A program made the position numbers and the translations under genes. Source: an uncultured Alphaproteobacteria bacterium (lineage in GTDB: Bacteria > Pseudomonadota > Alphaproteobacteria > HIMB59). Taken from it: a stretch of DNA of 45,721 nucleotides. Below are positions 20,610 through 39,353 of the stretch, piece by piece; position 1 is the stretch's first letter, and each line of letters opens with the position of its first letter. The notes under the pieces were generated by a model, which did no database searches, was not told where the DNA came from, and worked only from the letters and a program-made list of their open reading frames with translations. Where the stretch lies: positions 1 to 45,721 of the forward strand of contig CABYSX010000010.1 of NCBI GenBank assembly GCA_902521795.1, given 5' to 3'.

Positions 20610-21770
20610 ATGCCAGGTAAAATTTCACTTTTCGTCCCAGGGCCAACCAATATGCCTGATAGAGTAAGACAGGCAATGGATATTTCAAATGAGGACCACC
20701 GTGCACCAGGAATGGATAAATTTTGGCATCCACTAATAAACGATTTAAAAAAAGTTTTTGAAACAACCTCAGGTCAACCAATTATATTTCCAGGTACAGG
20801 CTCTAGTGGATGGGAAGCAGCACTTACTAATTTATTAAGCAAAGGAGATAAAGTTTTATCTGGAAGATTTGGACATTTTTCTCACCTTTGGATTGAAATG
20901 TGTAAAAAACTTCACATTGATGTTGAAGAAGTAGATTGTGAATGGGGTTCAGGAACACCTCATGAAGAATTTGAAAAGATTTTATCAGCTGATAAAGAAC
21001 ATAAAATAAAAGCTGTACTTGTTACCCAAAACGAAACCTCTACTGGAGTAACGAATGATGTTAAAGCCACTAGAGAACTTTTAAACAATCTTAACCATCC
21101 AGCTTTATTATTTGTTGATGGGGTAAGCTCTATAGGTTCAATAAAATTTGAAATGGATGCATGGGGCGTTGATGTTGCAGTTTCTGGATCTCAAAAAGGT
21201 TTTATGTTACCCGCAGGTCTTGCTATTTCGTGTGTTAGTCAGAAGGCACTTGAAATTGCTAAAACTGCAAATTTACCCAGAGCCTATTACGATTATCAAG
21301 ATATGTTAAAAATTAATCAAACAGGTTACTGGCCTTATACTAACCCAATGCCATTATTAAGAGGTCTACGTGAGGCTCTTGATATGATGTTGGAAGAGGG
21401 ACTTGATAACATATATTCACGTCATAAGTTTTTAGCTGAAGCAGTTCAAAAAGCCTCTAATGCTTGGGGACTTAAACTTTGTGCAAAAGATCCATCTTTA
21501 TACTCCAATACTGTTACAGCTATCATGGTTCCAGAGGGTATTGACTCCACAGACGTTGTTAAAACAGCTTACAATAAATATAACACTTCCTTTGGCGGTG
21601 GATTGAATAAAGTTGCTGGAAAGTTATTTAGAATAGGTCATCTTGGTGATTTAAATAGCACTATGATACTTGGAGCAATTTCAACAGCCGAATTAGCAAT
21701 GTATGATGTAGGAATAAAGTTTGAACTTGGAAGTGGCGTTGCCGCAGCAATCAAACATTTAAAAGTCTAA
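20610..21770 (+). CDS. Serine/aspartate-glyoxylate aminotransferase family protein
   Basis: This PLP-dependent class V aminotransferase probably aminates glyoxylate to glycine with serine (or another amino acid) as donor. The 386-residue protein has SLFVPGPTNMPDRVRQAM at the N-terminus, FPGTGSSGWEAALTNLLS, QNETSTGVTND, LLFVDGVSSIGSI and the PLP-binding Lys196 in SGSQKGFMLPAG. These fit serine-glyoxylate aminotransferase and the related aspartate-glyoxylate enzyme BhcA; I cannot separate the two by eye. A GAAAGGATA ribosome-binding sequence precedes the ATG. The PanE-like gene follows with no gap, suggesting a shared role in glyoxylate metabolism. Confidence 0.85.
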   Translation: MPGKISLFVPGPTNMPDRVRQAMDISNEDHRAPGMDKFWHPLINDLKKVFETTSGQPIIFPGTGSSGWEAALTNLLSKGDKVLSGRFGHFSHLWIEMCKKLHIDVEEVDCEWGSGTPHEEFEKILSADKEHKIKAVLVTQNETSTGVTNDVKATRELLNNLNHPALLFVDGVSSIGSIKFEMDAWGVDVAVSGSQKGFMLPAGLAISCVSQKALEIAKTANLPRAYYDYQDMLKINQTGYWPYTNPMPLLRGLREALDMMLEEGLDNIYSRHKFLAEAVQKASNAWGLKLCAKDPSLYSNTVTAIMVPEGIDSTDVVKTAYNKYNTSFGGGLNKVAGKLFRIGHLGDLNSTMILGAISTAELAMYDVGIKFELGSGVAAAIKHLKV

Positions 21771-22748
21771 ATGAAAATTTGTATTTACGGTGCTGGTGCA
21801 ATAGGTGGTTACCTTGGAGCAAAATTAACTGAGATTGGCGCTGATGTAACTTTGATCGCAAGGGGCCCTCACTATGAAGCTATTAGACAAGATGGATTAA
21901 GATTAAGAAAAGATGGTAAAGAACTTGTGGTTTATCCTAAATGCGTTGACACAGCAGAGAAAGCAGGAAAGCAAGATTATATTTTTGTCACTCTAAAAGC
22001 ACACTCTGTGCCAGGTTGTCTTGATGCTTTTGAAGTACTTATGAAAGAAGATACGTCATTTGTCTGGGGAGTAAATGGTATTCCGTGGTGGTACTTTTAT
22101 AATCATAGTAATCCTGACTTCAAAGATAAAAAAGTTACCTCAGTTGATCCAGATGGAAGTCAATGGTCCCGAATAGGTCCTGAAAAAATTATTGGTTGTA
22201 TTGTCAATCCAGCCTCAGAGGTTATTAAACCAGGTGTAATTCAACACCTAGAGGGTGACAAGTTTCAATTAGGAGAAATTAACGGCGAGGAAACAGATAG
22301 AATTAAAAAACTTTCTGAGACATTAGAAAAAGCAGGCTTTCAAGCACCAGTTAGACCAAATATTAAGGGAGATATATGGCTAAAACTTTTTGGTAACTTG
22401 TCTCTTAACCCTATCAGTGCACTTACTACATCTACTCTTGTAAAAATTTGTAGCAACCATGAAGTTAGAGATGTTGTCAAAAATATGATGAATGAAGCAC
22501 ATGCCATTTCTCAAAGCTTAGGAATTGACAAACCTTTTGATGTAGAAAGAAGAATTGATGCTGCTAAAGCAGTGGGTGAACATAAAACATCAATGCTTCA
22601 AGATTTAGAACGTGATAGGCCAATGGAAATTGATGCTTTAATTTCCTCAGTTCAAGAGCTTGGTATAATTACAAATATTCCAACACCAACAATTGATACA
22701 GTGCTTGCTTTAACAAAGCTTAGAGCAAAAGAAGCTAAATTATATTAA
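21771..22748 (+). CDS. PanE-like 2-ketoacid/oxalyl-CoA reductase candidate
   Basis: This NAD(P)H-dependent reductase belongs to the ketopantoate reductase (ApbA/PanE) family. It has the N-terminal [13 protein letters not shown] Rossmann motif, a [12 protein letters not shown] segment (about residues 99-110), the catalytic Lys205 in [18 protein letters not shown] and the C-terminal [18 protein letters not shown]. Plain PanE makes pantoate, but the gene directly follows the glyoxylate aminotransferase. Methylobacterium extorquens uses a PanE homologue (PanE2) to reduce oxalyl-CoA to glyoxylate. By context I favour a role in C2 metabolism; this is inference. Its stop overlaps that of the convergent sucD at TTAA. 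Confidence 0.8.
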
Positions 22749-23617
22749 CTCAGTGCCTCTTTAATTGTTTCACCTAATTTTGCTGGTGACTTGGAGATAT
22801 GAACTCCTGCCTCTTCTAAAGCACTAAACTTTGACTCAGCAGTACCTTTTCCCCCTGATATAATGGCGCCGGCATGACCCATTCTTTTTCCAGCAGGAGC
22901 GCTTGCACCAGCTATAAAAGATGCAACTGGTTTTTTAATTTCAGATTTTTTTATAAACTCTGCGGCCTCTTCTTCAGCAGTACCACCAATTTCTCCTATC
23001 ATAATAATACCCTCAGTTTCAGGGTCTTTTAAAAATAGATCAAGACAGTCTATAAAGTTTGTACCGTTAATTGGATCTCCACCAATACCAATACAAGTTG
23101 ATTGTCCTAGACCTACTGCAGATGTTTGAGCGACTGCTTCATAAGTAAGAGTCCCAGATCTACTAACAATGCCTATTTTTCCTTTTTGATGAATATGGCC
23201 AGGCATGATACCTATTTTACATTCATCTGGTGTAATTATTCCTGGACAGTTTGGACCAATTAAACGCGATTTCGATTTTTCTAATTTTCTTTTTACCTGC
23301 ATCATATCGAGTACTGGGACACCCTCAGTTATACAAACAATTAACTCCATATCAGCATCAATAGCTTCAATAATAGCACCTGCGGCAAAGGGAGGTGGAA
23401 CATATATTACAGTTGCATTTGCTTCAGAACTGTCTTTAGCCTCCATGACACTGTTGAATACTGGAAGACCTAAGTGTTCTTGACCGCCTTTCTTTGGAGT
23501 CACTCCACCGACCATCAGGGTTCCGTATTTAATTGCTTGTTCTGAGTGGAAAGTTCCTTGCGAGCCTGTAAATCCTTGGCAAATAACTTTGGTATTTTTA
23601 TCTATTAATACTGACAT
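22745..23617 (-). CDS. sucD: Succinyl-CoA synthetase, alpha subunit
   Basis: The alpha subunit binds CoA and carries the phosphohistidine in the TCA-cycle reaction that makes ATP/GTP from succinyl-CoA. The 290-residue protein has [17 protein letters not shown], a GGVTPKKGG loop, [10 protein letters not shown] and the phosphorylated His248 in [15 protein letters not shown] strong AGGAG ribosome-binding sequence precedes the ATG. It lies ten bases after sucC on the same strand. It could supply or use succinyl-CoA in exchange with the CoA-transferase encoded nearby. Confidence 0.95.
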
Positions 23618-23627
23618 GATCTCTCCT

Positions 23628-24815
23628 TTAATTCAAAGCCTTAACTGCTTTTTGAGCTGCATCATCTAAATTATCAGCAGATATGATTGAGAGCCCAGAT
23701 TTATTTAAAATTTCTTTTCCTAGGTCAACATTGGTTCCTTCTAATCTTACTACCAATGGAACCTCTATAGACAGCTCTTTAGCTGCAGCTACAACACCTT
23801 CAGCAATGATGTCACATTTCATGATACCACCAAAAATATTTACTAAAATTGCTTTCACATTTGGATCCTGCAGAATAATAGAGAATGCTTTTGCTACTCT
23901 TTCTTTTGTAGCTCCACCTCCAACATCTAAGAAATTTGCAGGACTACCACCATGTAATTTAATAATGTCCATTGTGCCCATTGCTAATCCTGCTCCATTA
24001 ACCATGCAACCAATTTGACCATCTAATTTTACATAGTTAAGTTCGTGTTTTGATGCTTCGATTTCAGCTGGATCTTCTTCAGTTTCATCTCTCATAGACG
24101 CAACATCTTTGTGTTTATAAAGTGCATTATCGTCTATGGATACTTTTGCATCTAAAGCTAAAAAATTACCTTCGCCAGTTAAAACAAATGGATTAACCTC
24201 GACTAGAGAAGCATCTGTTGATAAAAAGCTATTATATATTTTTTGAATTTGATCACAAAAGTCTGTTGAAAGATTTTGATCTATTTTTAAGCCCTTAATT
24301 AATTTATCTAAACTATTTTGATCAATCACACTATCTCCGGGTATATTAACTGTAATGATTTTTTCAGGCTCCTTCTCAGCTACCTCTTCAATTTCCATAC
24401 CACCTTCGGTAGAAGCTATTATTGAAATTGAGGATGTAGCTCGATCTACAAGCATACTTAAGTAATACTCTTTTTTAATATCACAACCCTCTTCAATATA
24501 AAGACGATTTACCTGCTTTCCGTTTGGACCGGTCTGTTTTGTTACGAGAGTTTTGCCAAACATTTTTTTAGCATTATCTTTAGCCTCATCCTTAGAAAAA
24601 CAAACTCTAACTCCACCTTTTTCATCACCACTATCTTTAAACTTACCCGCACCTCTTCCTCCGGCATGAATTTGAGATTTCACCACCATTACCGGTGTTT
24701 GGATAGAGTCTACTGCAGTATCTATATCACTATCATCCAATACTGGATATCCATTTAAAACTCTTACATTATTATTTTTCAATAAAATTTTCGCTTGGTA
24801 TTCGTGCAGATTCAT
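23628..24815 (-). CDS. sucC: Succinyl-CoA synthetase, beta subunit
   Basis: The beta subunit holds the ATP-grasp nucleotide-binding fold and the succinate site. The 395-residue protein begins [12 protein letters not shown] and contains [75 protein letters not shown] and [17 protein letters not shown]. The intact [12 protein letters not shown] segment argues for a true SucC rather than malate-CoA ligase (MtkA), in which that loop is shortened. An AAGGAG ribosome-binding sequence precedes the start, which overlaps the upstream quinone oxidoreductase stop (ATGA). Confidence 0.94.
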
Positions 24816-25816
24816 GCCTGTTCTCCTTTTATATCTAATACTATTTTTCCGATGTGATCGGACTTTTCCATAACTTCATGTGCTTTATTTACTTCATGCA
24901 TTTTAAAAGTTTCAAAAATTGTAGGCTTATATTTGCCATCCTCTATCAAGGGCCATATTTCTTTTTGCACTTGATCGACAATAATTCCTTTTTCTAAAGG
25001 AGTTCTAGATCTCAATGTTGAACCAGAAATTTTTAGTTGTTTGTTCATTATATGCAGGAGATTAGCTTCACCTTTAATTCCACCTAAGGCAGCTATGTAT
25101 GTGAGTCTTCCTTTAAAGTTTAAAATTTTTAAATTTTTTTTTAGATACTCTCCTCCAACCATGTCTAATATAACATCAACTTTTAATTTTTTCTCATTAA
25201 AATATTTCTCAAAATCTAAATCTTTATAATTAATAGCTTCTGTTGCCCCTAATTCTATACAACTCTTACACTTTTGATTTGTCCCTGCAGTAACGTAAAG
25301 ATTTTTTGTATAGTTTTTAAGAATAGAAATAGCTGTAGTGCCTATGCCACTACTTCCCCCATGTATTAGAATACTTTCATCTTTTTGGAAGTTCGATACA
25401 TTAAAAATATTTTCATAAACTGTGAGTGTCGTTTCAGGCAAACCTCCCGCCTCAAGGGAATTTAAATTGCTTGGTAAGGGCATAACTTGTTTTTCATCAA
25501 CATTCACAAATTCTGCATAACCACCACCTGCTAGAATTGCACATACGTGGTCTCCTAAGCTAAATTTTTTTACTAACTTACCTAATTTTGAAACTTTACC
25601 AGAGCACTCGAGACCGATTATTTCACTTTCACCTTTTGGTGGAGGGTAGTGACCTTTTCTTTGAAGAATATCGGCTCTGTTGATACCAGCGTAATCAATT
25701 TCAATTTGTATTTGGCTATCAAGAGGATCATTCAATACTTTTTCATCTATAAAGAGATTACCCTCATTATTATTGATAAATTTCAAAATTATTTTCCTCT
25801 GGCATTTTGTATACAT
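24812..25816 (-). CDS. NAD(P)H:quinone oxidoreductase (zinc-free MDR family, PIG3/Qor type)
   Basis: This medium-chain reductase probably reduces quinones or enones with NADPH. It has the zinc-free signatures [59 protein letters not shown] and [13 protein letters not shown], and ends with HIGKIVLDI. The reading frame is open up to 25909, but homology begins near RKIILKF. I therefore start it at the ATG at 25816 (334 residues), which lies exactly in the centre of a 17-bp palindromic operator. It overlaps sucC by ATGA, so qor-sucC-sucD form one operon divergent from tctCBA. Confidence 0.85.
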
Positions 25817-25823
25817 TATACAA
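25807..25823. promoter_or_regulatory. Palindromic GntR-type operator between qor and tctC
   Basis: TTGTATA-CAT-TATACAA is a perfect 17-bp palindrome with a three-base centre. The same 13-base core, GTATACATTATAC, occurs in front of the ThDP-enzyme gene at 29831-29847. The pattern fits the TnGTATAC-type sites bound by FadR/FCD-class GntR regulators, and such a regulator is encoded at 29142-29801. The centre CAT is the complement of the qor start codon, so bound protein would cover that start. The tctC ATG lies 155 bases away on the other side. Confidence 0.75.
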
Positions 25824-25857
25824 TTCTTAAAAACAATCTCTGTTATAAGGGTTAATA

Positions 25858-25874
25858 AAAGATTATGTATACCA
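25858..25874. promoter_or_regulatory. Second, weaker GntR half-operator upstream of tctC
   Basis: The segment ends with ATGTATACCA, identical to one complete half plus centre of the 29831-29847 operator read on the opposite strand; over 17 bases 12 match. The other half is degenerate. Its centre is 51 bases from the centre of the perfect site at 25807-25823, close to five helical turns, so the two could be occupied cooperatively. Chance occurrence is less likely given this spacing but cannot be excluded. Confidence 0.45.
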
Positions 25875-25978
25875 ACAATATTTGATAAAAATTTCAAATT
25901 ATGAAACAACGAAAATTATTATTTTTCAATCTACTATAAATAGTCTATTCTACGCCCTAACCTATAGGAGGAAACAAT

Positions 25979-26956
25979 ATGTCAATAATTAAGAAATTAG
26001 CATTAGTAGTTGTTTCACTTTCACTTGTCGCTGTTAGCTCAGTGTCTTCTGCGAAGCCTTTTAGTCCGAAGAAGCCTGTTGAGCTTATTATACCAGCTGG
26101 TCAAGGTGGTGGAGCTGACGAAATCGCTAGATTAGTTCAAGGTGTTATCGAGAAGAACGATTACGCATCTAAGCCTGTGATTCCGATTAACAAATCTGGT
26201 GGATCAGGTGGTGAAGCTATGACTTATGTTAAGAAAAAAGCTGGTGATGAGCACACACTTATCATTACTCTTAACAACGTTCTTACTACACCCGTAAACC
26301 AGCCAGAATTAGGCATTGATTTCTTTAATGACTTTACACCTCTAGCAAGACTTATCACTGATACTTTCCTAGTTTGGATTGCAACAGAAGGTAAGAACAC
26401 TGCTGGTGTAGAAACATTTGATGATTTCATTAACCTAGCAAAAGGTAATGGTCTTGTAATGGGCGGTACAGGAAGTATGTCTGAGGACGAATTACTTCTT
26501 GGTATGATGAGAGGTCAATTTGGATTTGACGCTAAGTATGTTCCATACAGCGGCGGTGGTGCTGTTGCTAAGGGACTAGTTGGTGGTGAGTCTGATTTCA
26601 CATTAAACAACCCTTCAGAGCAAATGGGTTTCTATCAGTCAGGTGACTCAAAAGCATTAGTCATGATGACTCCTGAAAGAAATCCTGCATTCCCTGAAGT
26701 ACCATCTTCATATGAATTAGGTTATCCTGATCTTGAATACTACATGATGAGAGCATTTATGGCTCCAGCTGGTATTGATGCAGAAGTAGAGAAGTACTAC
26801 ACAGGTCTTCTTCACACTGTTTATCATGATGACGAGTTCCAAACTTTCAACATTGACGACGGAAAGTTAATGAGTTGGTTAGAAGGTTTTGGTCTTAAAG
26901 ACTTCTTAGCAATTGAATATGAGAAGCACGGCGAGATCATTAAAAACTTTAACTAA
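25979..26956 (+). CDS. tctC: Tripartite tricarboxylate transporter substrate-binding protein (TctC/Bug family)
   Basis: This periplasmic binding protein captures a carboxylate for the TctAB membrane complex. The 325-residue product has a Sec signal peptide (MSIIKKLALVVVSLSLVAV, likely cut after SSA at residue 25), then VELIIPAGQGGGADEIARL, the family's substrate-loop region, and YVPYSGGGAVAKGLVGGESD. The ligand cannot be read from sequence; neighbours suggest oxalate or another small carboxylate. A strong TAGGAGGAAAC ribosome-binding sequence precedes the ATG. Codon use is shifted, with AAG used for about 13 of 21 lysines where neighbouring genes mostly use AAA, pointing to high expression. 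Confidence 0.92.
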   Translation: MSIIKKLALVVVSLSLVAVSSVSSAKPFSPKKPVELIIPAGQGGGADEIARLVQGVIEKNDYASKPVIPINKSGGSGGEAMTYVKKKAGDEHTLIITLNNVLTTPVNQPELGIDFFNDFTPLARLITDTFLVWIATEGKNTAGVETFDDFINLAKGNGLVMGGTGSMSEDELLLGMMRGQFGFDAKYVPYSGGGAVAKGLVGGESDFTLNNPSEQMGFYQSGDSKALVMMTPERNPAFPEVPSSYELGYPDLEYYMMRAFMAPAGIDAEVEKYYTGLLHTVYHDDEFQTFNIDDGKLMSWLEGFGLKDFLAIEYEKHGEIIKNFN

Positions 26957-26975
26957 TATTTAAGTTACGAGCGAT

Positions 26976-27590
26976 ATGAGCATAACAAACAAAATAACTG
27001 TCAAAAGAGCAGAAATTGCTGTTGCTGTTATTTTAGCGTTATGCTCAATCGCTCTAATGATTAAAAGTGCAGAGAACAGGATTACATGGAATGCAGAAGA
27101 AAATATGGGCGCTGGATTTCTCCCTTTTTACCTATCTCTTGGCATGCTCATATGCACTATTCTTACCATAATAAAATTTGTTTTAAAAAGATCACCACAA
27201 TCTAAAGATGACTCTCCTTTTATTGATGCAGTGGCTTTTAAATTTATAGCTGTGACTATAATCTCATTAGTTGTCTTAGTTCTAGCTATTGGCTACCTTG
27301 GAATTTACTTTTCACTAATTTTCTTTTTGGCATTTTACCTAAGATACTTTAGTGAAAAAAGTATCGCATTTATAACTATATTCGCAATTACAACGCCTAT
27401 ATTAACTTTTTTATTTTTTGAGTGGATGTTAAAAATACCTTTGCCTCAGGGTGTATCTGAGCCCTTATTTTATCCAGTCTACGATTTTATGTATGGTGGA
27501 TTTTCATTTGCTGTGAAAATGATTTTTATTATTTTAACAGTCATATTACCAACAGTACTAGTTTTTTTAACAACTAGATTTATTAAGTAA
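26976..27590 (+). CDS. tctB: Tripartite tricarboxylate transporter, small membrane subunit TctB
   Basis: TctB is the small, poorly conserved membrane subunit of TTT carriers. The 204-residue protein has about five hydrophobic segments, including VAVILALCSIALMI, FLPFYLSLGMLICTILTIIK and ISLVVLVLAIGYLGIYFSL. It contains the MGAGFLPFYLS motif typical of TctB and the IPLPQG segment near the third quarter. It lies 19 bases after tctC and 27 before tctA, completing the canonical tctC-tctB-tctA order. Confidence 0.9.
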   Translation: MSITNKITVKRAEIAVAVILALCSIALMIKSAENRITWNAEENMGAGFLPFYLSLGMLICTILTIIKFVLKRSPQSKDDSPFIDAVAFKFIAVTIISLVVLVLAIGYLGIYFSLIFFLAFYLRYFSEKSIAFITIFAITTPILTFLFFEWMLKIPLPQGVSEPLFYPVYDFMYGGFSFAVKMIFIILTVILPTVLVFLTTRFIK

Positions 27591-27617
27591 TTATTTGAAA
27601 GAGATTAATTAAATCAT

Positions 27618-29141
27618 ATGGAAACAGTTGGATTTCTTTTAGACGGCATTTTTACATCACTTCAGTGGTTTAATTTAGCACTACTAATATTTGGATGCCT
27701 AATAGGTTTGTTTGTTGGAGCAATGCCTGGTCTTGGTTCAGTTAATGGTGTAGCAATTCTTATTCCTATTACTTTTATTATTCCACCCACTGCAGCAATA
27801 ATTTTTCTTGCTGCTGTATACTACGGTGCAATGTATGGAGGAGCCATTAGCTCTGTTATGCTAGGTATTCCTGGGGCCTCTACTGCAGTTGCCACAGTTT
27901 TTGATGGCAGACCACTAGCGGTCAAAGGAGAGGCTATGACCGCATTAACTGCTGCTGCAGTTGGTTCATTTGTTGGTGGTACTGTCTCTGTTATTCTATT
28001 TACGTTATTTGCCCCACCTCTTGCTGAAGTTGCCCTCAGGTTTAATGCTCCAGAAACATTTGCGTTAATGGTTATGGCCTTTGCAACTTTTGTCGGTTTA
28101 GGTGGAGACGATGTACCTAAAACTATTTTTTCAATTTTAATTGGACTAGCACTATCAACTATTGGTTTAGATTTAATTACTGGAAAACCAAGATTAATTT
28201 TCTTTAACATACCTGGTTTCCTTCATGGAATTAATTTCCTAGTTTTAGCTATAGGTATATACGGAATAGGCGAAATGCTTTGGACTCTTGAGGAGACAAA
28301 AGGCAAAGTTCAAATGTCAAAACTATCTGTCAACATGAAAGAAGTTGGAAGAGCATTTGGTGCGCTTAAGAAAACTATTATGGCAATGAACATAGGCTCT
28401 TTTTTAGGCTTCTTTGTTGGAATTCTGCCTGCAGCAGGTGCAACACCTGCTTCACTAATGTCTTACGGTATTACAAAACAATTATCAAAAAACTCCAAAG
28501 AATTTGGAGAGGGTGTTCCCGCAGGTGTTGTAGCACCAGAGTGTGCAAACAACTCAGCAAGCACAGGAAGTATGCTTCCTATGTTAACACTTGGAATACC
28601 TGGATCTCCTACTACAGCTATTTTACTTGGAGGTATGATCTTATGGGGACTTACACCTGGTCCTCTTTTGTTTACACAAGAACCCGAGTTTGTATGGGGT
28701 TTGATCGGAAGTCTTTACATAGCAAATTTCTTTACCCTTGTTCTAAATATTGCATTAATACCTGCCTTTTTAATGGTCTTAAGAATACCTTTTGCCATCT
28801 TAGCTCCAGTTATTTTTGTGCTTTGCGTAACAGGAGGTTATGCGCCCACTCAAAGTTTGCACGATGTATGGCTTATGTTGTTATTTGGATTTGCAGGCTA
28901 TATTTTAAGAAAATTAGATTATCCAGTCGCACCTGCAGTTTTGTCAATTGTTCTTGGTCCTTTGGCTGAAAAAGCTTTAAGACAATCTTTGATTTTATCT
29001 GACGGTAGTATGGGGATATTTTTTGATGTTTCGGAAAAACCTATTGCAGCTGTGATAATGTATATAGCTATTGTCCTTTTAATAATGCCCGCATTTGGTC
29101 CTCTTTATAGAAGACTCTTTAAAAAAAAACAAACAGCGTAA
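27618..29141 (+). CDS. tctA: Tripartite tricarboxylate transporter, large permease subunit TctA
   Basis: TctA is the main channel-forming subunit, driven by an ion gradient. The 507-residue protein has about 11-12 membrane segments and the family signatures GLFVGAMPGLGSVNGVAILIP, YGAMYGGAISSVMLGIPG, LGIPGSPTTAILLGGM and the inner repeat GFFVGILPAAGATPASLMSYG. The two related PGxG-type motifs mark the internal repeat. Its stop codon is immediately followed by the GntR ATG at 29142, which places the regulator in the transporter operon. Confidence 0.95.
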   Translation: METVGFLLDGIFTSLQWFNLALLIFGCLIGLFVGAMPGLGSVNGVAILIPITFIIPPTAAIIFLAAVYYGAMYGGAISSVMLGIPGASTAVATVFDGRPLAVKGEAMTALTAAAVGSFVGGTVSVILFTLFAPPLAEVALRFNAPETFALMVMAFATFVGLGGDDVPKTIFSILIGLALSTIGLDLITGKPRLIFFNIPGFLHGINFLVLAIGIYGIGEMLWTLEETKGKVQMSKLSVNMKEVGRAFGALKKTIMAMNIGSFLGFFVGILPAAGATPASLMSYGITKQLSKNSKEFGEGVPAGVVAPECANNSASTGSMLPMLTLGIPGSPTTAILLGGMILWGLTPGPLLFTQEPEFVWGLIGSLYIANFFTLVLNIALIPAFLMVLRIPFAILAPVIFVLCVTGGYAPTQSLHDVWLMLLFGFAGYILRKLDYPVAPAVLSIVLGPLAEKALRQSLILSDGSMGIFFDVSEKPIAAVIMYIAIVLLIMPAFGPLYRRLFKKKQTA

Positions 29142-29801
29142 ATGATTCAAAAAATAGGAGCTGTAAACCTTAAAGGTAAAGTATATGAGTCTTTAAAAAA
29201 ATATATTTTATCTTTGAATATATATTTAAAAGAAAGTGATTTTCATTTAGATGAAAGACAATTGTCTGAAAAGCTAGGAGTAAGTCGAACACCTATAAGA
29301 GAGGCTGTTGCCAAATTAGAGCAAGAAGGTATTGTAAAAACCGTTCCAAGAAGAGGTGTGTTTGTCCATAGAAAATCAAAAAAAGATTTGGTAGATATTG
29401 TAACTGTTTGGGCAGGACTAGAGGGATATGCAGCGCACTTAATTATTAAAAATTCAAAAAAAGACGAAATAGAAAGTTTAAATAAATTCTGTCATTACTC
29501 TAAGGAGAACGTTTTATCTGAATTAGATAACTACTCGAATGATAACATCAAATTCCATAATCAAATCATGAAATTAACTAAGGTTAAATTAATGGGAGGA
29601 ATTTTAGAGTCTCAATTAATCCATCTACAATACCTCAGGAAAAAGTTTATAATCGAGTCAAATAGGGCCGTCAAATCTATTGATGAGCACAATGATATTG
29701 TTAGATCTCTTGTCGCAGGACAAGCATCAAAAGCAGAAAAACTTCTTAAAAATCATGCACTTACATTAGTGGATAAGATTCAAGAAAGCATTAATTCATA
29801 A
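29142..29801 (+). CDS. GntR-family transcriptional regulator (FadR/FCD class)
   Basis: The 219-residue protein has an N-terminal winged helix (about residues 13-75) with LSEKLGVSRTPIREAVAKLE and VPRRGVFV, and a C-terminal helical FCD ligand domain with KFHNQIM, EHNDIVRSL and KNHALTLV, where the histidines fit the usual metal/ligand site. It abuts tctA and lies 63 bases before the ThDP-enzyme gene. The two perfect palindromes at 25807-25823 and 29831-29847 are its most likely operators. It probably senses the transported carboxylate or a product such as glyoxylate; this is inference. Confidence 0.92.
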   Translation: MIQKIGAVNLKGKVYESLKKYILSLNIYLKESDFHLDERQLSEKLGVSRTPIREAVAKLEQEGIVKTVPRRGVFVHRKSKKDLVDIVTVWAGLEGYAAHLIIKNSKKDEIESLNKFCHYSKENVLSELDNYSNDNIKFHNQIMKLTKVKLMGGILESQLIHLQYLRKKFIIESNRAVKSIDEHNDIVRSLVAGQASKAEKLLKNHALTLVDKIQESINS

Positions 29802-29830
29802 GGCAAAATTCTTTGCAACACCTAATAATC

Positions 29831-29847
29831 TGGTATACATTATACCA
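29831..29847. promoter_or_regulatory. Palindromic GntR-type operator upstream of the ThDP-enzyme operon
   Basis: TGGTATA-CAT-TATACCA is a perfect 17-bp palindrome with a three-base centre, sharing its 13-base core with 25807-25823. A TTGCAA box (29813-29818) followed after 17 bases by TACATT (29836-29841) would place the site over the -10 element, the arrangement expected for repression. The GAGAGAGG ribosome-binding sequence of the next gene begins four bases after the palindrome. Confidence 0.78.
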
Positions 29848-29864: not shown

Positions 29865-31541
29865 ATGTCTACAGGATCAAACGAACAAATGATAACTGGC
29901 GGAGAGCTAGTTGCAAAGGCCCTAAAAGCTGAAGGAGTTGAAGTAATTTACACTTTATGTGGAGGGCACATTATTGACATTTATAATGGATGTTTAAACG
30001 AAGGAATTAAAATCATTGACGTTCGTCATGAAGAAGTCGCCTCTCATGCTGCTGACGGATATGCACGAATGACTGGTAAACCAGGTTGTGCGGTTGTGAC
30101 TGCCGGTCCTGGAACTACTCATGCATTAACGGGAGTTGCAAACGCTTTTAGAGCTGAAATTCCGATGCTTTTAATTGGCGGTCAGAGTTCTCTTACACAA
30201 CATAAAATGGGATCTTTACAAGATTTGCCTCACGTAGACATGATGCAACCCATTACAAAATTTGCTGCTACAGTAATGTCCACTGAGAGATGCGCAGACA
30301 TGGTCTCAATGGCTTTCAGGGAAACTAGAAATGGATCGTTTGGCCCATCTTTCTTAGAAATTCCAAGAGACATTCTTGACTCATCTATTCCTATGAGTAA
30401 AGCTGTATTACCACAGGCAGGCAAATACAGTGCTTCATCAAAAACATTAGCAGACCCAACAGATGTTCAAAAGGCTGCTGATATAATTTCAAAAGCTGAG
30501 AGACCTTGCGTTCTTTTGGGCCAACAAGTTTGGACTTGCCAGTCAACAAAAGAAGCAATTGAGTTTGTTAAAAATATGAACATACCTGCATATTTAAATG
30601 GTGCTGCCAGAGGTTCAATGGCACCAGGAGACCCACATCATTTTCATAGAACCAGAAGAAATGCATTTACTAAATCAGATTGTATCATAATTGTTGGAAC
30701 ACCATTTGATTTCAGAATGGGTTATGGAAAAAGATTAAACCCAAATGCAACAGTAATTCAAATTGATATGGATTATAGAACTGTTGGAAAAAATAGAGAC
30801 ATCTCTCTTGGCTTAGTCGGTCATATTGGAACAACTCTAAAAGCTATTTCAGAGGCAGGAACAAAGAAAGACAGATCAGATTGGTTTGGTGAACTTCGAT
30901 CAGGTGAAGAGGCCGCATTAGAAAAGCTGATGCCTACTTTTACAACTGATAAATCTCCAATCAGCCCTTACAGAGTGGCATGGGAACTAAATCAGTTTTT
31001 GAACGATGACACGATATACATTGGCGATGGTGGAGATGTTGTTACTATCAGTGCTCAGGCTGTACAGCCAAGAATGCCAGGTGCTTGGATGGACCCTGGA
31101 CCTCTTGGAACATTAGGAGTTGGGGTACCTTACGCGCTTGCTGCTAAATTATCAGCTCCAGAAAAAGAAATTCTTTTATACTGCGGTGATGGAGCATTTT
31201 CTATGACTGGTATGGATTTTGAGGCATTTGTTCGTCACAAAGCCCCAGTTTTAACAGTTATAGGAAATAACTCTGCTCAAAATCAGATTAGATTTGGACA
31301 AATTATGAAGTACGGAGAAGATAAAGGAAATGTTGGAAATATCTTAGGCGATGTCAATTTTGATGAATTTGCAAAAATCTTTGGTGGTCATGGAGAAGCT
31401 GTCAGAGAAGCAAAAGAAATTCAACCAGCCCTTAAACGAGCTAGAGAAGCTGTAAAGTCAGGTATCCCTGCTATTGTAAATATTTGGGTTGATAAAGAAG
31501 AATTTGCACCTGGTACAAAAAACCAGACTATGTACAAATAA
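29865..31541 (+). CDS. ThDP-dependent enzyme: oxalyl-CoA decarboxylase or 2-hydroxyacyl-CoA lyase (acetolactate synthase-like)
   Basis: The 558-residue product is a three-domain ThDP enzyme of the acetolactate-synthase superfamily. It keeps the catalytic Glu56 in DVRHEEVASHAADGYAR, AGPGTTHALTGVANAF, and the ThDP-Mg motif GDG (441-443) to NN (468-469). Because the next gene is a formyl-CoA:oxalate CoA-transferase homologue, decarboxylation of oxalyl-CoA to formyl-CoA is the leading hypothesis. However, its N-terminus (LCGGHIIDIYNGC) and C-terminus (FAPGTKNQTMYK) look more like the ALS/2-hydroxyacyl-CoA lyase branch than classical Oxc (GVVGIPITN). It is not ordinary IlvB, since no small subunit follows. 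A strong GAGAGAGG ribosome-binding sequence precedes it. Confidence 0.75.
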   Translation: MSTGSNEQMITGGELVAKALKAEGVEVIYTLCGGHIIDIYNGCLNEGIKIIDVRHEEVASHAADGYARMTGKPGCAVVTAGPGTTHALTGVANAFRAEIPMLLIGGQSSLTQHKMGSLQDLPHVDMMQPITKFAATVMSTERCADMVSMAFRETRNGSFGPSFLEIPRDILDSSIPMSKAVLPQAGKYSASSKTLADPTDVQKAADIISKAERPCVLLGQQVWTCQSTKEAIEFVKNMNIPAYLNGAARGSMAPGDPHHFHRTRRNAFTKSDCIIIVGTPFDFRMGYGKRLNPNATVIQIDMDYRTVGKNRDISLGLVGHIGTTLKAISEAGTKKDRSDWFGELRSGEEAALEKLMPTFTTDKSPISPYRVAWELNQFLNDDTIYIGDGGDVVTISAQAVQPRMPGAWMDPGPLGTLGVGVPYALAAKLSAPEKEILLYCGDGAFSMTGMDFEAFVRHKAPVLTVIGNNSAQNQIRFGQIMKYGEDKGNVGNILGDVNFDEFAKIFGGHGEAVREAKEIQPALKRAREAVKSGIPAIVNIWVDKEEFAPGTKNQTMYK

Positions 31542-31557: not shown

Positions 31558-32805
31558 ATGGAAGCTTTAAAAGGTGTCAAAATATTAGACATGACTCATG
31601 TACAATCTGGTCCAACTTGTACACAATTATTAGCTTGGTTTGGTGCAGATGTTGTTAAAGTAGAAAGACCAGGAGTTGGAGACGCTACTAGGGGTCAATT
31701 AAGAGATGTTCCTGATGCAGACAGCTTGTACTTTACAATGCTTAATTCTAACAAAAGAAGTATTACACTAAATCCGAAGAAGCCTGAAGGTTCAAAAATA
31801 TTTACTAAACTAATTAAAGAATGTGATGTAATGGTCGAAAACTTTGCCCCAGGTGCTTTAGACAGAATGGGTTTTTCTTGGGAAAAAATTCAGGAGATAA
31901 ATCCAAGAATGATCTATGCATCTGTTAAGGGCTTTGGTCCGGGTAAGTACGAAGATTGTAAAGTTTATGAGAATGTTGCTCAATGCGCAGGTGGATCAGC
32001 TTCAACAACAGGTATGCTTGGTGAAGTCCCGCTAGTTACTGGCGCTCAAATAGGAGATAGTGGAACAGGATTACATCTAGCATTAGGTATTGTTACCGCA
32101 TTGTTTCACAGAGAAAAGTCAGGAAAAGGTCAAAGAGTGTCTGCTGCTATGCAAGACGGTGTTTTAAATCTTTGCAGAGTAAAACTTCGTGATCAACAAA
32201 GGCTCTCTAGAGGCCCTCTAAAAGAATATTCTCAATTTGGAGAAAATATTCCTTTTGATGACGCCACGCCACGTGCAGGTAATGACTCTGGCGGAGGTCA
32301 GCCAGGAAGAATTCTAAAATGTAAAGGTTGGGAGACCGATCCTAATGCCTATACTTACTTTATTACTCAAGCTGCAGTTTGGGAAAAAGTATGTGATGTT
32401 ATTGGAAAACCTGAATGGAAAGAAGATGAGAGTTACTCAACTCCTGCGCTTAGACTACCAAAACTTAATGAAATCTTTAATACCATCGAAGCTTGGACTA
32501 TGACTAAAACAAAATTTGAGGTTATGGATATATGTAACCCTCTTGATATACCAGTTGGTCCAATACTTTCATTAAAAGAGTTGTCTGAGGATCAAGGACT
32601 AAGAGATACCAATACAATAGTTGAGGTTGATCATCCTGAAAGAGGAAAATATTTAACAGTTGGCAATCCTATTAAATTATCAGACTCTCCAGCAAAAGTT
32701 GAAAGATCCCCACTTCTTGGAGAACATACAGATGAGATACTGAAGGAATTTTGTCAAATGAGCGAAGATGAAATTAAAGCTGTAAGAGAAGCCGGAGCAG
32801 TATAA
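31558..32805 (+). CDS. frc: Formyl-CoA:oxalate CoA-transferase homologue (class III, CaiB/BaiF)
   Basis: This enzyme moves CoA between carboxylates, in the Frc family from formyl-CoA to oxalate. The 415-residue protein resembles Oxalobacter Frc along its whole length. It has [14 protein letters not shown] (Gln16), the active-site Asp167 in [11 protein letters not shown], Tyr58 in [23 protein letters not shown], the glycine-rich loop [11 protein letters not shown] and [15 protein letters not shown]. The Oxalobacter Trp48 position is Gln47 here (TRGQLRD), as in E. coli YfdW. A TAGGAGGAAATC ribosome-binding sequence precedes the ATG, 16 bases after the ThDP enzyme. The acceptor could also be a 2-hydroxy acid. 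Confidence 0.88.
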
Positions 32806-32831: not shown

Positions 32832-33749
32832 ATGAAGATAATTTTAATGGGACAACAAGCATTTGGAAAAAGTGCTTTAGAAAAATTTCATACAGAAACA
32901 GACCACGAAGTTGTAGCAGTATATTGTGCTCCCGATAAAGAAGGTAAACCAGTTGACCCTGTAAAAGAGTATGCCCAAAGTGTAAGTCTCCCAGTATACC
33001 AACCATCAAATTTTAAAGATCAAGAGGTATTAGATCAAATAAGGTCTCATGGAGCAGATTTATGTGTAATGGCATATGTTATTATTTTCGTTCCTGAAGG
33101 GGCAAGAGATATTCCTACTCATGGTTCAATATGTTTTCACCCTTCATTACTTCCATTACATAGAGGCCCAAGTTCTATTAACTGGCCAATTATTGGCGGA
33201 TCAACTAAAACAGGTCTTTCAATCTTTTATCCGAACGATGGATTAGATGAAGGTGAGATATTACTCCAAAAAGAAGTTGACATAGCGCCTGATGATACTT
33301 TGGGCGATGTTTATTTTAAAAAGATATTTCCATTGGGTCTAGATGCTTGTGTAGAAGCAGCAAATCTAATTGAGTCTGGAAATGCACCAAAAACACCCCA
33401 AGACGACTCTAAAGCAACATATGAATCTTGGTGTAAAAAAAGTGATGCAAGAATTGATTGGAAAAAGCCAGGAAATGAAATTTATAACCTAATTAGAGGC
33501 TGCAACCCTCAACCCGGTGCATGGGCTGAATTTATGGGTGACGAGTATACATTCTACGATAGTAGATTTATTGATGAACAAAGCGCGGAGCATTTCCCTG
33601 GTCAAATAATATCAATTAATGCTGAGAATGTTAGAATAGCTGTAAAAGGTGGATTTATTGAAGTATCAAGGTTTAAATCTGATCAAGGTAAATTATTTGT
33701 AAAAGACATGAACACTGCAGTATTTACAGAGGGTGATTTATTCTCATAA
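32832..33749 (+). CDS. Formyltetrahydrofolate hydrolase/formyltransferase-like protein (stand-alone ALDH1L1 N-terminal type)
   Basis: The 305-residue protein matches the formyltransferase fold followed by the Fmt C-terminal domain, in the version found at the N-terminus of 10-formyl-THF dehydrogenase. It has MGQQAFGKSALEKF, the catalytic His103 in FHPSLLPLHRGPSSINW and Asp139 in NDGLDEGEILLQKE, then IRGCNPQPGAW. Asn of ordinary Fmt is Cys101 here; the dehydrogenase domain also lacks Asn there. No aldehyde-dehydrogenase or carrier domain is attached. It lies 26 bases after frc with an AAGGAGACA ribosome-binding sequence, so it probably handles the formyl group from formyl-CoA, as hydrolase or folate transferase. 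Confidence 0.82.
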   Translation: MKIILMGQQAFGKSALEKFHTETDHEVVAVYCAPDKEGKPVDPVKEYAQSVSLPVYQPSNFKDQEVLDQIRSHGADLCVMAYVIIFVPEGARDIPTHGSICFHPSLLPLHRGPSSINWPIIGGSTKTGLSIFYPNDGLDEGEILLQKEVDIAPDDTLGDVYFKKIFPLGLDACVEAANLIESGNAPKTPQDDSKATYESWCKKSDARIDWKKPGNEIYNLIRGCNPQPGAWAEFMGDEYTFYDSRFIDEQSAEHFPGQIISINAENVRIAVKGGFIEVSRFKSDQGKLFVKDMNTAVFTEGDLFS

Positions 33750-34253: not shown

Positions 34254-34519
34254 TCTTTTTTGCAACATTAACTGTTTTGGGGGTCTCTGTAGCATTATGC
34301 TTAGTTCGAGCAATCAAAGGTCCAACTCCTTTTGACAGAATATTATCTATATCAAGCATTGGGACTATTATAGCGATAGGCATAAGTGTTCATGGTTTTG
34401 CATTTGAAAGGCCTGATTTTGTAGATATTTCATTGATGTACATACTTTTGAATTTTTTAGGCACCATAGCAATACTTAGGTATTACAAAATAAAAAGGAA
34501 AAAAAGTAATGTCTTATAA
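34250..34519 (+). CDS. mnhF: Multisubunit Na+/H+ antiporter subunit MnhF (MrpF)
   Basis: The 89-residue protein has three membrane segments and the MrpF signature CLVRAIKGPTPFDRILSISSIGT, here with the conserved GPTPFDR and a later FVDISLMYILLNFLGTIA. MrpF helps form the membrane core of the antiporter. The start overlaps mnhE by four bases and its end overlaps mnhG by 11 bases. Confidence 0.92.
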   Translation: MIFFATLTVLGVSVALCLVRAIKGPTPFDRILSISSIGTIIAIGISVHGFAFERPDFVDISLMYILLNFLGTIAILRYYKIKRKKSNVL

Positions 34520-34823
34520 TTATATTGAATTGATCACTCTTATCTTATTAGTAATAGGTTGCTTCTTCATTTTATCTGGGAGTTTAGGCTTGATAAAGTT
34601 ACCGGATGTATTTAGTCGGATTCACGCTGCCGGCCTAATTGATACACTAGGATCAGGTTTTATAGTCTTAGCTTTAATAATTTATTCAGGTTTTAGTTTA
34701 TTAAGCCTTAAACTATTATTGATTCCTATCTTTTTAATATTCACCAGCCCTGTAACAGGTCATGCCATAGCTTTATTTGCTCATGAGTCAGGGCATAAGC
34801 CAAAAGGAAAAAATAAAAAATGA
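34509..34823 (+). CDS. mnhG: Multisubunit Na+/H+ antiporter subunit MnhG (MrpG)
   Basis: MrpG is recognised by LSGSLGLIKLPDVFSRIHAAG (residues about 23-43, the PD.(Y/F)xRxHAAG hallmark) and TSPVTGHAIALFAH. It has three hydrophobic segments in 104 residues. It overlaps mnhF by 11 bases and the next gene by four (ATGA). The E-F-G order equals the order of the first three subunits of archaeal Mbh complexes. Confidence 0.93.
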   Translation: MSYNYIELITLILLVIGCFFILSGSLGLIKLPDVFSRIHAAGLIDTLGSGFIVLALIIYSGFSLLSLKLLLIPIFLIFTSPVTGHAIALFAHESGHKPKGKNKK

Positions 34824-35392
34824 ACTTTTTATTAATTAATTTTTTCTTAATTTCCCTGTTACTAGTAACAACTTTTTTTATTTTTAAAACTACATCATTA
34901 ATAAGCGTGGTAGCTCTTACTGGAGCATTTACTTTGCTTTGTTCCGCTATTTACGTAAATTTAGATGCAGTTGATGTAGCATTTACAGAAGCGGCTGTGG
35001 GGTCTGGAATATCAACTATTTTAATGGTAATGGCTGCTGCAAAATTACCTGAGGGAAAAAAAAATAAATTAATAAATTTATTTCCTAGCATTATCCTAGC
35101 AGTATCGATATCACTAATATTGATTATCATAATTGCTAATCTCCCATTACTAGGCGATCCAAATGCTCCAATACATCTTCATGTAGTTCCAGAGTACCTT
35201 AAGGAAAGTAAAGACTTTTTTCACATACCAAATGTCGTAACTAATATTTTAGCTAGCTATAGGGGTTTTGATACTCTTGGAGAAACAATTGTTATATTTA
35301 CTGCAGGCCTAGGTGTTATAGCCTTGTTAACTAGTAACACTCTTAATCGTAAAACAAACTTTAAGAAAAATAATAAAAAAAATGAGAGATAA
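34820..35392 (+). CDS. Antiporter subunit corresponding to fused MbhD-MbhE / C-terminal part of MrpA
   Basis: This 190-residue membrane protein has about five hydrophobic segments. The first half contains DAVDVAFTEAAVGSGISTIL, the DUF4040/MbhD hallmark, and the second half has YRGFDTLGETIVIFTAGLGV, the MbhE-like motif found at the C-terminus of MrpA. In classical Mrp operons these parts are the tail of the very large MrpA; here they are a separate gene, as in Mbh/Mbx-type clusters. It overlaps mnhG and mnhB by 4 and 11 bases. Confidence 0.82.
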   Translation: MNFLLINFFLISLLLVTTFFIFKTTSLISVVALTGAFTLLCSAIYVNLDAVDVAFTEAAVGSGISTILMVMAAAKLPEGKKNKLINLFPSIILAVSISLILIIIIANLPLLGDPNAPIHLHVVPEYLKESKDFFHIPNVVTNILASYRGFDTLGETIVIFTAGLGVIALLTSNTLNRKTNFKKNNKKNER

Positions 35393-35819
35393 AATTTCAT
35401 CTAGTCCAGTATTAAGTGTCGTGAGTAAAATTCTTTTTGCACCAATTATTATATTTGGACTTTACGTGCAATTCCATGGCGACTACGGACCAGGAGGAGG
35501 ATTTCAGGCAGGAGTAATAGTGGCGGCTGCTTTTATTTTATATTCAATGATATTTGGGCTTTCAAAAGGTGAAACCTTAGTTCCGATAATGATTAATCGT
35601 TATTTAATGTGTGTTGGTGTTTTGTTATATGCAGGCGTTGGAATAGTTTCAATTCTTCTTGATGGTATGTACTTAGATTATAATGTTTTATCATCAGACC
35701 CTTCAACTGGTCAACATATAGGCATTATATTAGTTGAACTAGGAGTTGGTATCACTGTTGCAACAGTAATGATTGCCTTATATCACTCCTTCGCTTCTTT
35801 TGGAGAGATTAATGAGTAA
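35382..35819 (+). CDS. mnhB: Multisubunit Na+/H+ antiporter subunit MnhB (MrpB)
   Basis: The 145-residue protein has four membrane segments and the MrpB hallmark FHGDYGPGGGFQAGVIVAAA (the H...PGGGF motif), followed by GIILVELGVGITVATVMIAL. It overlaps the preceding gene by 11 bases and mnhC by eight (ATGAGTAA), keeping the cluster translationally tight. Confidence 0.92.
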   Translation: MRDKISSSPVLSVVSKILFAPIIIFGLYVQFHGDYGPGGGFQAGVIVAAAFILYSMIFGLSKGETLVPIMINRYLMCVGVLLYAGVGIVSILLDGMYLDYNVLSSDPSTGQHIGIILVELGVGITVATVMIALYHSFASFGEINE

Positions 35820-36174
35820 CTTTATTTATTTTTGGAACCATTTCGCCTTTATATTACTGATGGTTGGTGGTTTATTTATAATTATCACGAGTCAAAACTA
35901 TTTAAAAAAGGTAGTTGGCTTAGCAATTTTTCAAACTGCAGTTTTTGTATTTTTTGTATCACTCGCAAAAGTCTTAGACGGAACAGCTCCTATTTTAACA
36001 AAAATGGAAAACGCTTATTCAAATCCATTACCACATGTCTTAATACTGACTGCTATTGTGGTTGGTGTTGCAACTTCAGCACTAGGATTAGCGTTAGTAC
36101 TACAGATCTACAGGAACTATGAAACAATCGAAGAGAAAGAAATACAGTCTTTGGAGTTAAAGTCAGATAAATAA
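35812..36174 (+). CDS. mnhC: Multisubunit Na+/H+ antiporter subunit MnhC (MrpC, NuoK-like)
   Basis: MrpC resembles NuoK of complex I. The 120-residue product, from the ATG at 35812, has three membrane segments and the signatures GLAIFQTAVFVFFVSLA and NPLPHVLILTAIVVGVATSA, matching the DPLPQALVLTAIVI box of the family. The frame is open 13 codons further upstream inside mnhB, but the overlapping ATG is the better start. The next antiporter-like gene starts directly after its stop. Confidence 0.9.
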   Translation: MSNFIYFWNHFAFILLMVGGLFIIITSQNYLKKVVGLAIFQTAVFVFFVSLAKVLDGTAPILTKMENAYSNPLPHVLILTAIVVGVATSALGLALVLQIYRNYETIEEKEIQSLELKSDK

Positions 36175-39119: not shown

Positions 39120-39353
39120 ATGAAAAAGAATGATTTAACAAGTATGGGTAAAAGTTTTACAAAGTACATACTTATTATTGGGGTACTCTTAATTCTTTCA
39201 GATTTTACATTCCATAGACATGAATATTTTTCATTTGCTGAGATTTATGGTTTTCCAGCTTTTTTTGGATTTATAAGTTTTGTTTTTATCGTTTTGTTAG
39301 GAAAGTGGTTAAGAAAATTCTTAATGAGAAAGGAGGACTATTATGATCAGTAA
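39120..39353 (+). CDS. Small two-helix membrane protein of the antiporter cluster
   Basis: I do not recognise this 77-residue protein as a named Mrp subunit. It has two hydrophobic segments (YILIIGVLLILSDFTF and AFFGFISFVFIVLLG) and a basic C-terminus (KWLRKFLMRKEDYYDQ). It begins right after the preceding stop and overlaps the next antiporter gene by 11 bases, with an AGGAGG sequence in its end serving that gene. Its conserved placement between large antiporter subunits suggests an accessory or assembly role; that is inference. Confidence 0.7.
   Translation: MKKNDLTSMGKSFTKYILIIGVLLILSDFTFHRHEYFSFAEIYGFPAFFGFISFVFIVLLGKWLRKFLMRKEDYYDQ

Follow-up and report, generated by a model that had tools for sequence, protein, structure and literature searches.

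A putative GntR operator family linking oxalate-type acid and one-carbon genes in a marine HIMB59 alphaproteobacterium

Introduction

When a regulator gene lies between two nearly identical inverted repeats, are the repeats its operators, and which genes would they control? The question is raised by a 45,721-nucleotide stretch of DNA, here called the window, from an uncultured alphaproteobacterium of the HIMB59 lineage (assembly GCA_902521795.1, contig CABYSX010000010.1, positions 1 to 45,721). It carries two 17-bp inverted repeats, op1 and op2, on either side of gntR, a gene for a GntR-family regulator of the FCD type. The original prediction placed the repeats in front of the transporter gene tctC and of an operon beginning with a thiamine diphosphate (ThDP) enzyme, and took them as the operators of a GntR regulon. 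We consider it quite probable, from comparison of sequences, that op1 and op2 serve as operators for the GntR protein whose gene they flank, and that this protein is a repressor of a regulon running from oxalate and formyl-CoA to one-carbon (C1) folate and the serine cycle.

The two repeats and the regulator between them

op1: 25807..25823, no strand; in the divergent qor/tctC intergenic region, identified by exact sequence and conservation in relatives
op2: 29831..29847, no strand; ThDP-enzyme ATG 17 bp downstream, identified by exact sequence and conservation in relatives
gntR: 29142..29801, plus strand; VanR-group FCD regulator (PF00392 and PF07729), last gene of tctCBA-gntR

Both op1 (TTGTATACATTATACAA) and op2 (TGGTATACATTATACCA), as read in the window, are perfect 7-3-7 inverted repeats. 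They are identical at 15 of 17 positions and have a 13-base core in common, so the predicted pair of perfect 17-bp repeats with a common three-base centre was found exactly as described. gntR ends at 29801, the ThDP-enzyme ATG is at 29865, and op2 is located between the two. An FCD-type GntR gene between the two units had also been predicted, and the domain matches of the product agree: a GntR winged helix-turn-helix (PF00392, 49 bits, cut-off 27) is followed by an FCD domain (PF07729, 46 bits, cut-off 24.3). The gene starts without a gap after tctA, and is the only one in its own assembly in which a GntR helix-turn-helix was found.

The exact motif in the genome and the genus

The assembly comprises 1.195 Mb and is 84.8% complete. 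With the pattern TKGTATAMWKTATACMA it has two exact sites, which are op1 and op2, and the form TKGTATANNNTATACMA gives three, against one site for the reversed control. The third site, TGGTATATTGTATACCA at C2:119087 (a one-mismatch match under the first pattern), lies 28 bp upstream of fhs, the gene for formate-tetrahydrofolate ligase, whose product scores 906 bits with the NCBIfam model (cut-off 652). A regulon of two operators, as first proposed, is therefore too small. The third copy suggests that the regulator controls a gene set for oxalate-type acids and C1 units.

A count over 52 genomes of the genus gave 128 exact copies of the motif and 4 of its reversed control; 51 of the genomes have at least one copy of the motif. 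Conservation was counted in 29 loci around gntR, each site being lost to a contig end in one of them. All 28 relatives whose loci extend to op1 have it, 27 of them exactly and 1 with a single mismatch; op2 is exact in 28 of 28. In an alignment of 14 sequences of the divergent intergenic region, the operator is the main conserved block. Exact copies of the motif are thus not scattered over unrelated positions, and relatives in which the operon persists have retained them, as the original prediction had expected in both respects. Its definition of the motif by the 13-base core did not survive, since the arms are conserved across sites and the centre varies (CAT, CAA, CGT, TTT).

Related regulators and probable operators in other taxa

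A search of the class detected this GntR at E 1e-25 or better in 29 of 385 genomes, 4 of them in this genus; for 20 of the 25 outside the genus the gene neighborhood was read. In a scan of named genomes we took the best 80 of 580 loci and analysed the 53 with E 9e-37 or better, leaving out 27 weaker ones (L286-L312, 29-37% identity). Enzymes near the true oxalyl-CoA decarboxylase (OXC) are called OXC type here if they have a better tblastn score to the OXC of locus L161 than to the ThDP enzyme of the window. The L161 protein itself passes the OXC model (1009 bits, cut-off 739) and is the sole one checked against it.

Of the 20 class loci, 17 contain frc, for a formyl-CoA:oxalate CoA-transferase. 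An OXC-type enzyme is present in 11 and the ThDP enzyme of the window type in 9, and no locus has both. A formyltransferase (fmt-like) gene is present in 9, fhs in 6, sucC/mtkA in 2, and panE together with qor in 1. The 53 named loci include 45 with frc and about 34 with an OXC-type enzyme (35 by another tally, and including L256, which is only 25% identical); 8 have the window type and 11 have neither in the stretch. Over the 73 loci, the window-type enzyme stands in place of the OXC type in 17, and the two never occur together in the stretches fetched.

When the genus motif was applied unchanged, its best match fell in the 400 bp before gntR in 13 of the 20 class loci and 34 of the 53 named loci; for 148 palindromes with shuffled arms the means are 1.1 (maximum 7) and 2.5 (maximum 16). 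Upstream of any listed gene the counts are 16 of 20 and 45 of 53, and the shuffles average 2.6 and 6.3 (maximum 11 and 27). This null excludes arm shuffles of fewer than three changes; where they were kept, the near-identical arm TGKTATA scored 14 and 17, no worse than the 13 and 16 of the real word. The exact op2 word occurs upstream of gntR in L169, and the fhs word in L233. The motif thus accompanies gntR relatives that are about 33-47% identical, in other orders as well. The sequences show the sites, the rarity and conservation of the exact word, its gene neighbours and its co-occurrence with the regulator family, and from these we infer binding.

Homologs of fhs, sucCD/mtkAB, panE and qor lie beside the gntR relatives in some loci; some of the qor and mtkA matches are only 31-42% identical. 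The regulon read from the operators is supported independently by these neighbours. The oxc-frc clusters of Bradyrhizobium, Azospirillum, Roseovarius and others have three things in common with the window: frc, a GntR relative and operators of the same family. They differ in that most have an enzyme near the true OXC, whereas the window has a ThDP enzyme like the 2-hydroxyacyl-CoA lyases and its genes are split over several units.

Chance, or another regulator

Several observations count against reading these sites as operators of this GntR. The window, with a G+C content of 32.1%, holds 11 perfect 7-3-7 palindromes, against a mean of 7.8 in 1500 windows simulated with an order-2 Markov model, and 10.1% of the simulated windows contain some pair that is at least 15/17 identical. 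When up to two mismatches to TKGTATAMWKTATACMA are allowed, the counts in the genome are 17 for the motif and 18 for the reversed control, and inexact sites were accordingly given no weight. The single control match to TKGTATANNNTATACMA belongs on the same side. With up to one mismatch, the motif does not clearly exceed the control in three of the four relatives examined (4 against 4, 4 against 3, 5 against 8); the fourth, G030, has 8 sites against 1. Among the class loci, L172 has no site within four mismatches and the L168 stretch reaches only 20 bp before gntR, and several named loci have sites with three or four mismatches only.

The palindromes and the chance-level number of inexact sites would suit AT-rich inverted repeats that arose by chance, or RNA hairpins, with no role as operators. 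The genus-wide excess, the survival of the operator in an otherwise diverged intergenic region and the reuse of the motif before other functionally linked genes leave this explanation scarcely credible. The original claim that the pair was very unlikely by chance is thus too strong for the window taken by itself, where the significance is weak and was not relied on; it is the genome-wide and comparative counts that make the sites non-random.

The palindromes could also be operators of a different regulator, with the nearness of gntR incidental. Seven congeners without a GntR match have one or two exact sites each, and their assemblies are all incomplete (55-79%). Since the genome studied here is itself incomplete, another GntR could be missing from it. 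In 17 of 23 genomes of the sister family of the order, a palindrome of the same shape with another centre is present, and no GntR ortholog was found in any of the 23 at E 1e-10. These points are opposed by the single GntR helix-turn-helix in the assembly, by the passage of the motif into other orders with gntR relatives, and by the TKGT and ACMA boxes, words of FadR-subfamily sites in the available part of PMC4494728, in the outer arms of the site. We judge a different regulator very unlikely.

As a negative control, the sister family has fhs in 23 of 23 genomes, and in the 300 bp upstream of it no site with fewer than three mismatches was found in the 21 loci with a readable start (two starts are cut, and L200, one of the 21, has a doubtful start codon). 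The sister-family palindrome, TTGTATATGGTATACAA, was rejected as part of the regulon. It lies at the start of transaldolase/priA in the three loci read (L123, L132 and L134, about position 1501). Also kept out were six inspected sites with one or two mismatches, three in G030 and three in the genome of the window, which are inside or at the edge of open reading frames (ORFs) of unrelated function. One of those in G030, the one-mismatch site ATGTATATTGTATACAA (L313, about position 1566), coincides with the start of a gene for a solute-binding protein. G030 also has a second FCD-type GntR match, 32% identical, at 1014594-1015178.

Probable targets of the operators

Beside op1 are two divergent units.

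qor: 24812..25792, minus strand; quinone oxidoreductase of the PIG3 family (TIGR02824, 391 bits, cut-off 297), with an inferred TTG start at 25792
sucC/mtkA-like: 23628..24815, minus strand; beta subunit of a CoA ligase, encoded after qor (544 bits with the NCBIfam model for succinate-CoA ligase beta, cut-off 370)
sucD/mtkB-like: 22745..23617, minus strand; alpha subunit of a CoA ligase, likewise encoded after qor (479 bits with the NCBIfam model for succinate-CoA ligase alpha, cut-off 336)
secondary core ATGTATACCA: 25865..25874, no strand; degenerate, on the tctC side of op1, read from the sequence with low confidence
tctC: 25979..26956, plus strand; tripartite tricarboxylate transporter substrate-binding protein (PF03401), ATG at 25979
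tctB-like: 26976..27590, plus strand; membrane protein, placed by its position between tctC and tctA
tctA-like: 27618..29141, plus strand; membrane protein ORF with homologs beside gntR relatives elsewhere

We read 51 loci in the genus, which are 45 distinct sites after six duplicates were dropped. They do not sample the 128 at random, having been chosen mainly away from gntR and from part of the matches. Twenty-four precede fhs, 9 are at qor/tctC, 6 precede the ThDP enzyme, and sites preceding pntA-like and malyl-CoA-lyase-like genes number 4 and 2; none of the classified sites is outside these five units. The one pntA-like product tested scores 423 bits with PRK09424 (cut-off 383) and 360 bits with TIGR00561, under its cut-off of 444. 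For the one malyl-CoA-lyase-like product tested, the nearest solved structure is 5ugr (E 1.5e-112), and a sucC/mtkA-like gene then follows. The fhs gene is present in 42 of 52 congeners, and its site is exact in all 30 of the best loci fetched.

The distances to the start codons are short in most units. op2 lies 15-31 bp before the ThDP-enzyme ATG across relatives, the fhs sites 27-30 bp before the ATG and the pntA-like sites 16-17 bp; the malyl-CoA-lyase-like gaps are 57 and 83 bp. In the window op1 is 14 bp from the inferred qor start on the opposite strand and 155 bp from tctC. The gap to qor is 13 bp in 19 of the 28 exact sites measured and 0-14 bp in the rest, apart from one of 35 bp (a second site, in L065). 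Only relative to qor does the position of op1 resemble that of the ThDP, fhs and pntA-like operators. The qor-sucCD/mtkAB-like unit appears, from this arrangement, to be a better-placed target of op1 than tctC. The original placement of the operators thus stands for op2, and for op1, which hugs qor, it is not supported as first written. Bound just upstream of start codons, the regulator would repress the unit of ThDP enzyme, frc and formyltransferase, the qor-sucCD/mtkAB-like unit and fhs.

Control of tctC through op1 as a second target, and with it of the regulator's own tctCBA-gntR unit, is possible from the layout, and we are less sure of it. The secondary core at 25865-25874 could serve tctC. 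A stronger form of this view keeps the GntR as the binding protein and makes it an activator, or makes op1 mainly a distal tctC site used together with the secondary core. op1 lies 107-181 bp before tctC in the relatives, some of which have a degenerate second core between the two, and the malyl-CoA-lyase-like sites show that operator distance is not fixed. A single site between divergent operons usually serves both, according to the available part of PMC4494728. The same source places such shared sites about halfway between the two operons; op1 stands close to qor instead. The secondary core was lost in several of the 14 aligned sequences, and the short distances before the ThDP enzyme, fhs, the pntA-like gene and qor also count against this view. 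We consider this alternative unlikely. On the other side, promoter and terminator scans found no consensus promoter overlapping any operator, so that occlusion is no more than a possible mode of repression.

We continue with the regulator as a probable repressor acting from op1 and op2. The regulon first proposed holds in kind, as a set of predicted GntR operators that are rare as exact words, are conserved and recur in other orders next to GntR genes of related sequence; the target of op1, the motif and the operator count as originally written had to be changed.

Probable structure of the operator

The sites from other Proteobacteria whose regulators are beside oxc/frc-type clusters make the 17-bp element easier to understand. 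These sites, such as TGGYATACMNNATRCCA, consist of a 10-bp GntR palindrome and a third half-site. Others are TGGTATACCA-AATACCA, TGGCATACCA-CATGCCA and similar words, with a core of GT, two bases and AC. The third half-site is oriented like the second. The matrix built from 58 such sites is descriptive only, as they were selected by similarity and some were counted on both strands. The 17-bp palindrome of the genus can be derived from this arrangement, its middle half-site being ATACAT or ATACAA and its outer arms perfect. A dimer or higher oligomer of the GntR protein would bind an element in which the 10-bp core TKGTATACMW is overlapped by the third half-site TATACMA, and in the genus this overlap would yield the 7-3-7 palindrome.

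The outer arms contain TKGT and ACMA boxes 9 nt apart, and the inner core GTATAC has its GT and AC at a distance of 2, with ACAT or ACAA as the right box. In the available part of PMC4494728, FadR-subfamily regulons have TKGT and ACMA boxes, A/T-rich palindromes and GT and AC 2-3 nt apart. The A/T-rich palindrome and the 2-nt distance of the inner core agree with this. The TKGT and ACMA boxes are present here too, but in the outer palindrome, where GT and AC are 9 nt apart. Extra half-sites near GntR palindromes are also described there, as we found here. The words "oxalate" and "GTATAC" are absent from the main text of that paper, the supplementary site tables being outside this check. The Escherichia coli NanR sites cited in it are direct repeats of TGGTATAW. 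The half-site word TGGTATA is common to both systems, but the arms here are inverted, and the gntR product scores 56 bits with the NanR model (cut-off 260). A literature search with the word TGGTATACCA gave nothing related among the matches listed.

The regulator and its possible effector

A six-helix effector domain distinguishes the VanR group of FCD regulators, and a metal site of Asp or Asn with three His in that domain is a further mark of the group. The AlphaFold model of the GntR protein (predicted local distance difference test score 86.2) has six helices after the winged helix-turn-helix, and on this model the regulator is of the VanR-group FCD type. The best fold matches are 7u5q, PmiR, Atu1419, Lar, TM0439 and McbR; FadR is at rank 43. 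The predicted metal site, N135, H139, H183 and H205, is identical in all 26 sequences of one alignment. In a second alignment of 28, which includes four outgroup paralogs, N135 is present in 25, H139 in 27 and both H183 and H205 in 28.

Comparison with Atu1419 of Agrobacterium fabrum (PDB 6z74 and 6za3) is instructive. The two proteins have the FCD fold in common and are 24% identical in a structural alignment. The DNA contacts E34, R45, T46 and R49 of Atu1419 correspond to E38, R49, T50 and R53 here (26 of 26 sequences), and its zinc ligands Asn137, His141, His192 and His214 correspond to the predicted metal site. The citrate contacts Tyr133 and Arg183 are matched by Y131 and R175 (26 of 26); a third citrate contact, Arg86, is replaced by W90. 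The 10-bp Atu1419 operator, ATGTATACAT, matches op1 at 9 of 10 positions and op2 with two mismatches, whereas the operator here has 17 bp; the window has two further one-mismatch matches to it, both without GTATAC. In the available part of PMC7797058, Atu1419 is a repressor with a 10-bp operator for which N5,N10-methylene-tetrahydrofolate was proposed as the effector. It controls hydroxycinnamate genes around folate C1 chemistry, in contrast to the oxalate and C1 genes here.

An effector at the Asn and three-His metal site of the FCD domain would release the protein from the DNA. Oxalate or another small acid as the effector would be the simpler reading. The match to Atu1419 in ligand residues and operator leads us to retain a bolder one, which we offer only as a speculation with rather poor prospects. 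The GntR subfamily would sense a C1 folate, for example 5,10-methylene-tetrahydrofolate or 10-formyl-tetrahydrofolate, at a zinc site formed by these residues. The C1-folate pool rather than oxalate would then switch oxalate/formyl-CoA assimilation, fhs, transhydrogenase and malyl-CoA lyase, through a three-half-site operator used across the Proteobacteria, with the ThDP enzyme as a non-orthologous replacement of OXC.

Enzymes and possible pathway

The unit downstream of op2 contains three genes.

ThDP enzyme: 29865..31541, plus strand; 2-hydroxyacyl-CoA lyase/OXC superfamily, from profile scores and nearest structures
frc: 31558..32805, plus strand; formyl-CoA:oxalate CoA-transferase family (TIGR03253, 695 bits, cut-off 504)
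formyltransferase-like: 32832..33749, plus strand; PF00551 and PF02911, nearest to the N-terminal domain of 10-formyl-tetrahydrofolate dehydrogenase

The ThDP enzyme is not an orthologous OXC, scoring 245 bits with TIGR03254 against a cut-off of 739. Its best model is PRK05858, acetolactate synthase (482 bits, under the cut-off of 587), and its nearest solved structures are 2-hydroxyacyl-CoA lyases. No better OXC was found in its own genome or in three relatives, one of them 99% complete; there the best match of the L161 OXC is this ThDP enzyme, at 26-27% identity. In the available part of PMC9214030, 2-hydroxyacyl-CoA lyases and OXC are one enzyme family able to condense formyl-CoA with formaldehyde. 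The reaction of the ThDP enzyme is consequently not deducible from its family, and the protein is a candidate for a non-orthologous OXC or for a lyase of another 2-hydroxy acid.

We are confident that frc encodes a member of the formyl-CoA:oxalate CoA-transferase family. Its product scores 542 bits with the YfdW structures and has both the Asp of GDSG, at 167, and the GGGQ loop, which we take to be catalytic. The formyltransferase-like protein might transfer formyl groups to or from folate, with formyl-CoA or formate as the partner; its gene lies beside frc and fhs in several taxa. The sucC/mtkA-like protein scores 470 bits with the malate-CoA ligase model, under the cut-off of 604, and homologs of both CoA ligase subunits lie beside gntR relatives elsewhere.

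Two other groups of genes were seen in the window. The stretch 20610-22748 encodes a PanE-like reductase, with 450 bits against a cut-off of 223, and a BhcA-like aminotransferase, whose 574 bits fall short of the cut-off of 650. Methylorubrum has an oxalyl-CoA reductase of the PanE type. Downstream of the ThDP unit, at 34509-41025, a run of ORFs resembles the subunits of an Mrp-type Na+/H+ antiporter, from the reading of the ORFs.

The frc unit, fhs, the sucCD/mtkAB-like ligase and the malyl-CoA-lyase-like and transhydrogenase-like genes of the relatives make up a gene set that, we infer, fits the capture of formyl-CoA and formate on folate and a serine-cycle-type assimilation. Through the regulon, oxalate or a related acid would be taken up and activated with CoA in step with the capture of formyl-CoA and formate on tetrahydrofolate and with such assimilation.

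Significance

No mention of oxalate together with HIMB59 was found in the open-licence literature, and "oxalate" and "oxal" are absent from the main texts of PMC10308909 and PMC10734472. A literature search for a GntR regulator of oxc/frc yielded no such paper among the matches listed. The available part of PMC8305402 states that oxc and frc exist and are not differentially expressed, and holds nothing further on their regulation.

With a single recognised GntR in the assembly, the regulon becomes readable from sequence. It predicts that a small-genome genus, probably of the marine HIMB59/AEGEAN-169 lineage, uses oxalate or a related acid as a C1 source. The same pairing of regulator and operator beside oxc/frc in Bradyrhizobium, Azospirillum and Roseovarius makes this GntR family a candidate regulator of oxalate degradation in both soil and marine bacteria.

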